The notes under the pieces: generated by a model
Database searches by the model: none
Told to the model about the DNA's origin: nothing
The model's input: the letters and a program-made list of their open reading frames with translations, nothing else
Shown here: one piece after another, positions 25,210 to 28,597 of the stretch
Numbering within the stretch: position 1 is the first letter of the stretch
How the letters are laid out: the number at the start of each line of letters is the position of its first letter
Assembly: GCF_900177485.1 (NCBI RefSeq)
Contig: NZ_LT840186.1
Coordinates: forward strand, 1,054,001-1,118,000
DNA: 64,000 bases
DNA from: Candidatus Pelagibacter sp. HIMB1321
GTDB lineage: Bacteria > Pseudomonadota > Alphaproteobacteria > Pelagibacterales > Pelagibacteraceae
Direction: 5' to 3'
Program-made: the position numbers and the translations under genes

Positions 25210-25535
25210 TGACTTATATCGTAAACGACAAATGTATAAAATGTAAATTAATGGATTGTGTTGAAGTCTGTCCAGTTGATTGCTTTTATGAAGGTAAAAA
25301 TATGCTTGTAATTAAACCGGATGAGTGTATAGATTGTGGCGTTTGCGAGCCTGAATGTCCGGTTGATGCCATCACTGCTGATACTGAACCTGGTAGCGAA
25401 AAATGGTTAGAGATCAATAAACAATACTCTGAAATCTGGCCCAATATAAGTGAAAAAAAAGATCCACCATCGGATCATGAAAAATTTAAAAATGAGCAAA
25501 ATAAGTTTGAAAAATATTTTAAAGAAAACCTTTAA
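25209..25535 (+). CDS. fdxA: 7Fe ferredoxin (FdxA type)
   Basis: A 108-residue ferredoxin. The N-terminal half has [18 protein letters not shown] and the second cluster has [16 protein letters not shown], the cysteine pattern of [3Fe-4S][4Fe-4S] ferredoxins, followed by the conserved tail with [13 protein letters not shown]. It carries electrons in the cytoplasm; the partner is unknown. It overlaps the TerB-like gene by one base and the carD gene by 44 bases in another frame, so translation of the three is tightly linked. Confidence 0.96.
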
Positions 25536-26388
25536 AAAAGACTCTCCTAAAAAAAAAACTAAAAAAGTAACAAAAAAAGTCGCTAAAAAAGTTGCGAAAG
25601 CAAAAAAAGTTTTACCTAAGAAAACTGCAAACAAAACTACTAAAAAAAAAACTATATCTAAAACAAAAAAAGTTGAGAGTAAAAAAGTAGCTAATAATGT
25701 TACCCAGACCGCAGAGGTTAAAACAGATAATTTAAGAATTTCAAAAAGTAATGAAGTAAAACCTGAAATCAAAAAAGTTAAAAAGCAAGAAACTGAAAAA
25801 AAAGAATATAAAGTTAAAGATTACGTTGTTTATCCAAAGCATGGCGTAGGTCAAATTACTGAATTTAAAAAGATTAATATTGGTGGGATTGACGTCGAAA
25901 CTTATGTGATAAAATTTGAAAAAGATAAAGCTAATGGAATGGTTCCTGTGAATAAACAATCACATCTTAGACCTCTAGCTACAATCAACCAGGTTAATAA
26001 ATGTATTTCGATTTTAAAAAGTAAACCAAAAATCAAGAGATCAATGTGGAGTAGAAGAGCTCAAGAATATGAAGCAAAAATTTCCTCAGGAAAAATATAT
26101 GAATTAGCTGAAGTAGTAAGAGATCTTAATAAAGGTGATGATCTTATGGTTGATCAATCTTACAGTGAAAGACAATTGTTTGAAAAAGCTTATGAAAGAA
26201 TTTTATCAGAATTTCAAATTGTTCTCGGAGTTTCTTTAGAAGATACACAAAAAAAATTGGATAAAGCTCTTAAAAGAAATTTAGGTGGTACACCACAACC
26301 TGCTCCTGTAGCACCAAAGACGACTACAGAATTGCCAACAGAAGAGCCAATTGGTGACACTGAAGATACTGATCCTATAGACGAATAA
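25492..26388 (+). CDS. carD: CarD-family transcription regulator with lysine-rich N-terminal tail
   Basis: From the ATG at 25492 ([12 protein letters not shown]) this gives 298 residues. The first ~100 residues are an extreme Lys/Ala/Thr tail with repeated KKVAKKV-type units, like the tail of histone H1. The CarD/RNA-polymerase interacting domain begins near [16 protein letters not shown] and is followed by the helical DNA-binding part ending with [18 protein letters not shown]; the C terminus is acidic and Pro/Thr rich. CarD proteins bind the RNA polymerase beta subunit and stabilise open promoters. A GTG at 25450 would give a longer form; ATG is preferred. The gene ends at a shared terminator. 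Confidence 0.9.
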
Positions 26389-26391
26389 AAA

Positions 26392-26431
26392 AAAACGCCT
26401 CTCACACAAAAAGTTATGAGAAGCGTTTTTT
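26392..26431. terminator. Bidirectional terminator between carD and a small basic peptide gene
   Basis: Arms AAAACGCCTCTCA and TGAGAAGCGTTTT (one C/A mismatch) around a 12-base loop, with a poly-A run on the left and poly-T on the right. It ends carD on the plus strand and the convergent peptide gene at 26450-26539 on the minus strand. Confidence 0.88.
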
Positions 26432-26449: not shown

Positions 26450-26539
26450 CTATCTTCTTCTTTTTTTAGCCTTCTTTTTAGCTTTTTTCTTAGCTTTTTT
26501 CTTAGTTTTCTTTGCCGCTTTTTTTCTTTTCTTAGGCAT
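26450..26539 (-). CDS. 29-residue lysine/arginine-rich peptide, histone-tail-like
   Basis: An ATG at 26539 on the minus strand opens a 29-codon frame starting MPKKRKKAAKKTKKKAKKK and ending AKKRRR before TAG. All but a few residues are Lys, Arg or Ala, with KKKA repeated. A strong AAGGGAG ribosome binding site lies seven bases before the ATG, and a bidirectional terminator follows the stop, so this is likely a true gene although it is far below usual length limits. It should bind nucleic acid by charge alone; its role is unknown. A ribosomal-protein-like or nucleoid role is possible. Its composition matches the CarD N-terminal tail next door. Confidence 0.72.
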   Translation of the reverse strand: MPKKRKKAAKKTKKKAKKKAKKKAKKRRR

Positions 26540-26749
26540 CTTTAGCTCCCTTATTTAGTTAAACGAATCAAGTTGATTCGTTGTTAACTTATTTTTATTT
26601 TTTTAAACAAGTTATGTCAAATCATTAATTAAAAACAAAAATTTACAAAAATAAAAATAAAATTTAAAAAAAAATTAAATTTAACTTAATTCTCTTTGTT
26701 AAAAAAAGTTAATGTTTATGCGTTAAATAACTAATTATATTTTATTTTA

Positions 26750-28447
26750 TTAATAAAGATTTTCTAATTCTTTTTTATATTCTTTAATAATTTTAAATCT
26801 TTTTAATTTTAATGTGGGCGTCATATATCCATTTTCAATTGAAAATTGATTATCAATAATAAAAAATTTTTTTATTTTTTCTATTTTACTTAGTTGTTTA
26901 TTTATTTTTTCTATTTCTGCTTCAATAATTTTATTATCTATATTTTTAAAATTGTTATTGACTACTATTAGAGCAACTAAAAAAGGTTTGTTGTCACCAT
27001 AAACTAATGCTTGTTCTATAAATTCTATTTTTGTTAATTCACCCTCTATTTTAACAGGTGAAATATTATCTCCACCAGGGGTAATCAAAATATCTTTCTT
27101 TCTATCTGTAATTTTGAGAAATCCATCTTCCAATATCCCAATATCACCAGTGTGCAACCATCCATTTTTAATAACATTGTTTGTCTCTAAAGTATTATTC
27201 CAGTAACCCAACATTACATTTTCGCCCTTAACTAATATCTCACCGTCATCTGCAATTTTTACATCGTTTCCCTCAAATGGAGGGCCAACAGTGTCTATTC
27301 TAATGTCATTAATAGGATTGCAACTCACAACAGGTGATGTTTCTGTTAAACCATAACCTTGTAAAGTTGGTAATCCAATTGAATTTAAAAATACCCCAAC
27401 ATTATAATCTAGAGCACCCCCTCCAGATATAAATGCTTTTAAATTTCCACCAAATTGAGATTTTATTTTTTTTCTTACCAATTTATCACAAACTAAATTT
27501 ATAAATTTTTCATAGTTTGATAAATTTTCTTTTAAAAAATTTTTTCTTCCAATTTGTAAAGTTGAATTTATCAAAAATTTTTTTACACCTGTTGCTTTTT
27601 TAAAAGTTGAAGTTATTTTTTGATATAAATTTTGATAAAATCTTGGCACTGCTGTCATTATAATATCTGGATTACAATCATTCATATTCTTAACAAGTTT
27701 ATCTATACTTTCGGCATAAAAAATTCTTGCACCTACTGCTATTTGAACAAATTGTACTGTGTGTTCATATGAATGAGATAATGGCAGCCATGTAAGAAAC
27801 TTGGGTTTGGTAGTTATAATTTCTCGAAGTAGTTTTGACGAACCTTCACAATTATTAAGAATACCTCCATGACTTAGCATCACGCCTTTGGGGTTTCCTT
27901 GTGTGCCAGATGTATAAATTATACATGAAATATCTTTTCTACTTATATCAATCTCTTTTAAATTCTTTTCTTTCTTATATGTCCTTCTAAAAATTTCTTC
28001 TATATAAGTAACATTTTTATCTTCGATATTTTCAAAACTAATAACTTTTTTAATGAAAGAATATTTATTTATTAAATTATTAATTTTTTTAAATTGAATA
28101 GCATCAGAAACAATAACCACTGAAGGTTTACAATCTTCAATTAAAAATTCATAATCTCTTTCAACATAAGTTGTATAAGCAGGTACAGATATTCCTTTTG
28201 ATAACATTATGGCCAAGTCTGAAATCAACCACTCTGGTCTATTTTCTGAAATTAATAAACACCTATCATTATGACTAATATATTGATCAAGAAAAAATGA
28301 GAAATTTTGAATAGCATCAAATGTTTGTTTCCAAGTAAAATTTAGAGTTTGATTTTTAAGTGATTGTAAAAAAATTTCATTTTTATTTTCGACTTGATAT
28401 CGATCAAAAAATAACTCTAGAAGGTTGTTATAATTCTCTAATTTCAT
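26750..28447 (-). CDS. AMP-dependent acyl-CoA synthetase (long-chain fatty acid CoA ligase type)
   Basis: An adenylate-forming enzyme of 565 residues from the ATG at 28447 (MKLENYNNLLELF). The ATP-binding P-loop is YTSGTQGNPKGVMLSHGG, followed by the A5 motif GYGLTETSPVVS, the A7 motif GWLHTGDIG and DRKKDILITPGGDNISP. The pattern fits long-chain FadD-like ligases of the AMP-binding family that activate fatty acids with ATP and CoA; chain length cannot be read. A longer frame to 28483 runs into the tRNA-Leu gene and is rejected. It is preceded by tRNA-Leu only seven bases upstream. Confidence 0.92.
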   Translation of the reverse strand: MKLENYNNLLELFFDRYQVENKNEIFLQSLKNQTLNFTWKQTFDAIQNFSFFLDQYISHNDRCLLISENRPEWLISDLAIMLSKGISVPAYTTYVERDYEFLIEDCKPSVVIVSDAIQFKKINNLINKYSFIKKVISFENIEDKNVTYIEEIFRRTYKKEKNLKEIDISRKDISCIIYTSGTQGNPKGVMLSHGGILNNCEGSSKLLREIITTKPKFLTWLPLSHSYEHTVQFVQIAVGARIFYAESIDKLVKNMNDCNPDIIMTAVPRFYQNLYQKITSTFKKATGVKKFLINSTLQIGRKNFLKENLSNYEKFINLVCDKLVRKKIKSQFGGNLKAFISGGGALDYNVGVFLNSIGLPTLQGYGLTETSPVVSCNPINDIRIDTVGPPFEGNDVKIADDGEILVKGENVMLGYWNNTLETNNVIKNGWLHTGDIGILEDGFLKITDRKKDILITPGGDNISPVKIEGELTKIEFIEQALVYGDNKPFLVALIVVNNNFKNIDNKIIEAEIEKINKQLSKIEKIKKFFIIDNQFSIENGYMTPTLKLKRFKIIKEYKKELENLY

Positions 28448-28453
28448 AATTTT

Positions 28454-28538
28454 TGGTGGGCGAAGAGAGAATCGAACTCTCACTTCTTGCGAAACACGAT
28501 TTTGAGTCGTGCGCGTCTACCAGTTCCGCCATTCGCCC
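28454..28538 (-). tRNA. tRNA-Leu (anticodon CAA), CCA encoded
   Basis: On the minus strand an 85-base class II tRNA with a long variable arm. The acceptor stem pairs GGGCGAA with TTCGCCC, then A and CCA (28454-28457). The anticodon loop CTCAAAA gives CAA, decoding UUG. The D loop has GGTAGACG and the T arm GAGTTCGATTCTC. It is immediately upstream of the acyl-CoA synthetase gene and probably processed from a joint transcript. Confidence 0.96.
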
Positions 28539-28597
28539 TTATATAAAAATATAATTTAAATAGTATAAGAACTATAATTATATTAAAAAACAAAAAA

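Follow-up and report, generated by a model that had tools for sequence, protein, structure and literature searches.

A small, highly basic frame convergent with carD

The window, that is, the whole 64,000-nucleotide stretch of DNA analyzed here, carries the following features at the locus.

25492 to 26388, plus strand: carD, coding for a CarD/CdnL RNA-polymerase-binding protein (Pfam CarD_TRCF_RID, 2.6e-13; CarD_C, 2.2e-19), the convergent neighbor
26390 to 26431, both strands: shared terminator hairpin of 17 pairs with A/T tracts on both sides, giving T tracts on both strands, between the stop codons of carD (plus) and the peptide gene (minus)
26450 to 26539, minus strand: open reading frame of a 29-aa Lys/Arg/Ala peptide
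26540 to 26552, minus strand: ribosome-binding site and spacer, AAGGGAGCTAAAG
26562 to 26582, no strand assigned: perfect palindrome AACGAATCAAsTTGATTCGTT, containing two TGATTCG (GANTC) sites in inverted orientation, whose bases also make up the stem of a hairpin in the predicted 5′ leader RNA
26592 to 26620, minus strand: promoter with TTGACA (26620 to 26615), a 17-base spacer, and an AT-rich −10-like TAAAAA (26597 to 26592)

Translation of the minus-strand frame from 26539 to 26450 yielded MPKKRKKAAKKTKKKAKKKAKKKAKKRRR followed by a stop codon. The peptide contains 17 Lys, 4 Arg, and 5 Ala with no acidic residue and has a computed pI of about 12, in agreement with the original prediction of a 29-residue, almost purely Lys/Arg/Ala product. 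This is the sole ATG frame of at least 20 residues in the window that consists of at least 50% Lys plus Arg, and we infer that it is translated into a disordered polycation with 21 positive charges. The gene is located on the strand opposite to carD, directly beyond the 3′ end of the latter, such that the two genes converge, and their stop codons are 53 to 71 bases apart at the 58 intact genome-contig loci measured. Both the ribosome-binding site and the bidirectional terminator shared with carD, which had been proposed for this locus, were found at the expected places, the former reading AAGGGAG-CTAAAG-ATG. Downstream of the frame, a run of at least five T residues is present at 155 of the 156 loci identified below, with a mean folding energy of −22 kcal/mol.

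A resemblance of the peptide to a KKVAKKV tail of CarD had also been proposed. The KKVAKKV segment belongs, however, to the extension at the N terminus of CarD (about 25550 to 25620), which is Lys-rich with a net charge of +27 across the first 70 residues, whereas the C terminus of the protein is acidic (net −8 across the last 32 residues). The supposed link between peptide and CarD comes down to shared composition. The CarD/CdnL loci fetched from other Alphaproteobacteria do not have the Lys-rich extension. CarD of the window's genome is loosely similar to Myxococcus CarD, in which a CdnL-like domain is combined with a basic, HMGA-like DNA-binding region. Elsewhere in the window (28430 to 28540), the GTG start of a 577-aa acyl-CoA-ligase-like frame falls inside an apparent minus-strand tRNA gene; the true start of the ligase is therefore probably further in, near MKLENYNN.

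Distribution of the peptide gene in Pelagibacterales

The carD regions of relatives were fetched, and the strand opposite to carD was examined for the frame directly downstream of that gene. The frame was present at 156 loci, in all Pelagibacterales genera with a readable carD neighborhood except one. The exception (g12) is a genus represented by a single fragmentary genome (G422, about 83% complete; loci L113/L165), where a one-base shift in a run of eight A residues near the end of the frame makes it read into the terminator, with promoter, leader, and start codon intact; this could reflect either a mistake in the assembly or genuine loss of the gene. Frameshifts in close relatives had been named as a check on the prediction, and this apparent one stands against 156 intact loci.

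In the genus of the window, the peptide is found at every locus free of a contig-end cut and measures 20 to 35 residues. Seven further genera of its family (g5 to g11) code for peptides of 21 to 58 residues, and the sister-family genera examined (g2, g3, g4, and g13) for peptides of 40 to 91 residues. The latter are histone-H1-like repeats, such as AAPKKKRKAAKRKPAKKK and MEELKVIFAKARKKAKKKAAPKKKRKAAKRKPAKKKAAPKKK, built of AAPKKK/KPAKKK units in variable copy number. The best-kept parts of the peptide are its Lys/Arg-rich start (MAKRRKKA/MPKKRKKA) and its Arg-rich end; across 73 distinct orthologous peptides, Lys plus Arg average 71%, and there are 20 acidic residues among all 73.

The ribosome-binding site is nearly invariant in the genus. 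Within the order, 236 of 397 genomes contained the DNA pattern comprising this site and the start codon; the window's genus accounts for 233 of these, and the reversed-pattern control gave 0 matches. Pattern-negative genomes include those in which no carD was found (G113, G159, and G185), those cut by a contig end (G004 and L023), and diverged copies (G169 and L164, MAAKRKAAKKSKKKAKKRSR). Beside carD in other Alphaproteobacteria, 20 loci were inspected and showed no small Lys-rich frame of a comparable kind. A stringent start-codon pattern run against 240 genomes of the class returned one Pelagibacterales orthologue (G081) and one unrelated match, a weak negative since this pattern misses Pro-2 forms such as that of the window. 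Carriage by phages was considered and rejected, as the pattern of ribosome-binding site and start had no match in viral contigs. The gene was not described in the literature within reach of our search on the SAR11 nucleoid, histones, and small open reading frames, most subscription papers being outside that reach.

The frame is under coding constraint

To judge selection on the frame, we compared its orthologues. All 98 distinct frames, 20 to 91 aa long, are multiples of three, so that every size change involves whole codons. Among close pairs of equal length, 45, 169, and 358 substitutions were counted at codon positions 1, 2, and 3, respectively. The ratio of synonymous to nonsynonymous changes was 360:212, versus 175:397 when the substitutions were randomly relocated (Fisher P of about 4e-28, with pairs that are not independent). 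In addition, AAG accounts for 29% of the Lys codons in the orthologues versus 14% in genes of the window (6 of 17 in the window copy), and the longest A run has a mean length of 7.3 bases versus 10.5 in random synonymous recodings. The AAG enrichment together with the short A runs suggests selection against poly-A slippage.

Whole-codon lengths and the excess of third-position and synonymous changes indicated that selection acts on the protein, and the conservation across the order indicated that the frame is a gene. A chance frame in AT-rich DNA is ruled out by the same two lines of evidence, conservation and codon pattern. Thus, judged by its evolutionary record, the 29-aa frame is a genuine small-protein gene common to Pelagibacterales, which lends strong support to the earlier proposal that it is a true gene for a basic peptide, too short to be picked up by gene calling.

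A conserved promoter and leader hairpin

Upstream of the gene we found a conserved promoter, leader hairpin, and GcrA/CcrM-type motif, all of which go beyond the original prediction. CGAATC is present in every readable leader (134/134 and 138/138 in two counts), nearly always as CGAATCA, and among 138 distinct leaders sampled throughout the order, 133 have TTGACA 38 to 42 bases ahead of it. Counted from the first base of TTGACA, CGAATCA begins about 40 bases downstream, close to the predicted +1, and standard promoter spacing would put the onset of transcription no more than a few bases from CGAATC.

The surroundings of CGAATC fold as a hairpin, with a mean z of −4.3 and 98% of the values below −2. 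In g8 and g9, the 3′ arm mostly reads GATTTG, by which the stem is kept through a G-U pair and the second GANTC is destroyed. In g5 to g7 and g11, other bases, located further in, form the stem instead, so that the C and G of CGAATC are unpaired; the second GANTC is lost in g5 to g7. CGAATC remains unchanged in all 10 leaders having its C and G unpaired. Since the stem is kept without the second GANTC and the motif is kept when unpaired, both the RNA stem and the CGAATC motif appear to be under selection.

With such a hairpin at the 5′ end of a short terminated transcript convergent with carD, one could argue that the RNA itself is functional, either as a regulatory small RNA or as a 3′ antisense controller of carD, and that the frame is incidental. 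This is very improbable in view of the whole-codon length changes, the synonymous excess, the conserved ribosome-binding site and start codon, and the terminator lying between carD and the peptide gene in nearly all loci; nor did any Rfam family reach threshold, which also disposes of a known RNA element. A survey of Pelagibacter RNAs names no element beside carD or fdxA (PMC2704228). A role of the frame as leader peptide for a downstream gene is ruled out by the terminator and the convergent gene that follows it.

In the leaders of several lineages (L151 to L162 and L184 of the sister family, L172 to L176, and L183), conserved CCTC/CTCC stretches could base-pair with the ribosome-binding site (for instance, ACCTCTAACTAAACCC...GGGGGGAG), which suggests translational control in these lineages.

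A GcrA/CcrM-type motif at the predicted transcript start

Read on the opposite strand, CGAATCA becomes TGATTCG, which has been put forward as the CcrM-methylated sequence through which GcrA activates transcription in Caulobacter (PMC7987155). In the promoter region of the peptide gene, two inverted TGATTCG copies, which match the extended GANTC form YGAKTCK, are located at 26564 to 26580, 10 bp apart. Both proteins are encoded in the window's genome: GcrA with an E value of 7e-39 (PDB 7ye1 match, 1e-24), and CcrM with a PDB 6pbd match of 6e-140 over 344 residues. GcrA acts at sites near the −35 and −10 elements, whereas the site in the peptide leader is about 40 bases away from the −35, probably among the first bases to be transcribed, which speaks against GcrA control. 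The locus resembles Caulobacter GcrA/CcrM promoters in having a TGATTCG-type GANTC site beside a TTGACA promoter in a genome with both proteins, and differs from them in that the site is placed at the predicted transcript start, inside an RNA hairpin. A CcrM homologue in SAR11 has already been reported (PMC3973325). Few likely GcrA targets were found in Pelagibacter, a tally that could not include the peptide gene because it is unannotated, and GcrA activation in Brevundimonas needed no extended GANTC motif (PMC7987155).

In the 1.32-Mb genome, CGAATCA occurs 14 times versus 52 times for the reversed word, and two of the 14 copies are in the peptide leader. Eight of the 14 are intergenic, versus about 5% intergenic sequence in the window; after removal of the leader pair, 6 of 12 are still intergenic (P of about 2e-5). 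The six other intergenic CGAATCA/TGATTCG sites (G000:C1 388642, 389334, 138673, 128072, 708875, and 711681; L195, L196, L198, L201, and L202) precede genes read as clpP, clpX, recA, amt, and two envelope/pilus-type genes, which we consider a candidate SAR11 GcrA/CcrM regulon. The close pair CGAATCA...GATTCG was found at one place in the window's genome, the peptide leader. A looser pair, CGAATCA...GATTC, occurs at one place each in a further six genomes of the genus that are complete or nearly so, and likewise in one genome of the sister family, and this place is again the peptide leader in the genomes whose coordinates were compared.

We also counted GANTC sites by their central base. GAATC/GATTC is about fourfold rarer in the window than by dinucleotide expectation (36 versus about 136), and GACTC/GAGTC is not depleted (45 versus 44 expected), so that avoidance is limited to A/T-centered CcrM sites. 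At the ccrM locus itself (L190, reverse complement 1357 to 1405), the 65 bp upstream of ccrM, in the rnhB-ccrM gap, contain three GANTC sites. That gap is where the "babIM" RNA element, whose first stem does not vary, has been described (PMC2704228); the element may at least partly be a methylation-site cluster.

It could still be that the hairpin alone, acting in mRNA stability or translation control, accounts for the conservation of the leader and that the GANTC match is coincidental. The maintenance of the stem by G-U pairs in g8/g9 and its rebuilding in g5 to g7, where the second GANTC is lost, speak for such an explanation. Against it stand the invariance of CGAATC where its C and G are unpaired, the rarity of CGAATCA in the genome, and its intergenic concentration, including that before clpP, clpX, recA, and amt, and we regard the explanation as possible but doubtful.

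Comparison with known basic proteins

Neither Pfam (to E = 1) nor NCBIfam (to E = 5) gave a family match for the window peptide, and the long sister-family forms matched nothing in either up to E = 5. In a search of solved structures with the peptide, the best match was insignificant. A pure polycation carries no specific functional signature. The peptide shares with the H1-like proteins Hc1, Hc2, AlgP, and BpH1 a Lys/Ala/Pro-rich sequence of low complexity, few acidic residues, and in-frame gain and loss of repeats. Chlamydia Hc2 (HctB) and the Hc2-like proteins of Bordetella and Burkholderia are likewise of low complexity, with short repeats of Lys/Arg and Ala plus Val/Thr/Pro, and Hc2 also varies in length through in-frame repeat gain or loss (PMC2848022); at 165 to 237 aa, however, Hc2 is far longer than the peptide (20 to 35 aa in the genus, at most 91 aa in the sister family), the peptide has no Pfam match, and the likeness need not imply shared ancestry. 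The C-terminal KPAA domain of Pseudomonas AlgP/PhaF has a similar H1-tail-like Lys/Ala/Pro composition and predicted disorder, and AlgP binds DNA (PMC9239181). AlgP and PhaF possess an N-terminal domain, in contrast to the SAR11 peptide, which is the basic stretch alone. No folded or dimerizing N-terminal domain of the Hc1 or AlgP type was found in the forms of 20 to 58 aa, and the sister family shows only MEELKVIFA at this end. Lacking both a match to a curated model and an Hc1/AlgP-type N-terminal domain, the peptide was not assigned to these families. The HMGA-like tail of Myxococcus CarD is comparable as a disordered basic DNA-binding module tied to a CarD-type protein (PMC4374960), whereas the SAR11 peptide comes from a gene of its own, convergent with carD, and lacks RGRP AT-hooks.

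Two other partners were weighed for such a polycation. The main alternative is that the peptide acts on the ribosome or on RNA, as a tiny ribosome- or rRNA-associated protein and not in the nucleoid. Very small ribosomal proteins typically have such a size and charge, and the conservation of the Lys/Arg-rich start and the Arg-rich end would fit as well. The long AAPKKK/KPAKKK repeats of the sister family, with their variable copy number, are typical of H1-like proteins instead and resemble no fixed-length ribosomal protein known to us. Together with the insignificant structural match and the GcrA/CcrM type of the promoter motif, this makes a ribosomal partner rather unlikely. A general polycation that handles polyanions, for example, in polyphosphate granules or in polyamine-like charge buffering, would be in line with the Lys/Ala/Pro repeat composition shared with the C terminus of AlgP (PMC9239181), a protein tied to polyphosphate granules in Pseudomonas. 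The peptide locus is not linked to any polyphosphate-metabolism gene, though, and the N-terminal domain of AlgP is missing from the peptide, such that we hold this function to be improbable.

Discussion

It is an even call, in our estimate, that this genuine gene codes for a size-reduced histone-H1-like polycation that coats nucleic acid and is probably controlled by the cell cycle. The original prediction left open a minimal nucleoid peptide or a ribosome-associated one; both are plausible, and the nucleoid is favored as the likeliest partner by the H1-like repeats seen in the longer forms of the sister family. In the model that we propose from these comparisons, an mRNA with a predicted length of about 200 nt would be made as an independent transcript from the TTGACA promoter, beginning with the 5′ hairpin and stopping at the terminator common to carD. 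Once translated, the disordered polycation would most likely bind nucleic acid through its charge and help to condense or coat the nucleoid. The three HU/IHF-type genes also present in the window's genome imply that the peptide would be an addition and not a replacement.

The CGAATCA/TGATTCG element at the transcript start would most likely be a CcrM methylation site read by GcrA, and if GcrA does read the methylated site, expression of the peptide should follow chromosome replication. A more specific scenario, to which we give clearly less credence, is that CcrM methylation and GcrA time the synthesis of an order-wide minimal H1-like peptide in step with replication, and that genome streamlining trimmed this peptide to 20 to 35 residues in the genus of the window.

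SAR11 bacteria rank among the most abundant cells on the planet, with only a small number of regulators known, and the peptide gene is a candidate target of GcrA/CcrM control in these organisms. A gene present across the order that is likely invisible both to gene callers, for its length, and to trypsin-based proteomics, in which its product would be cut to scraps, would represent a real gap in a model of minimal life. Such genes can be found via promoter, ribosome-binding site, and position rather than via sequence similarity. The peptide is possibly the smallest H1-like protein on record, and the natural length series of 20 to 91 residues offers a test of how short a working polycation can be.
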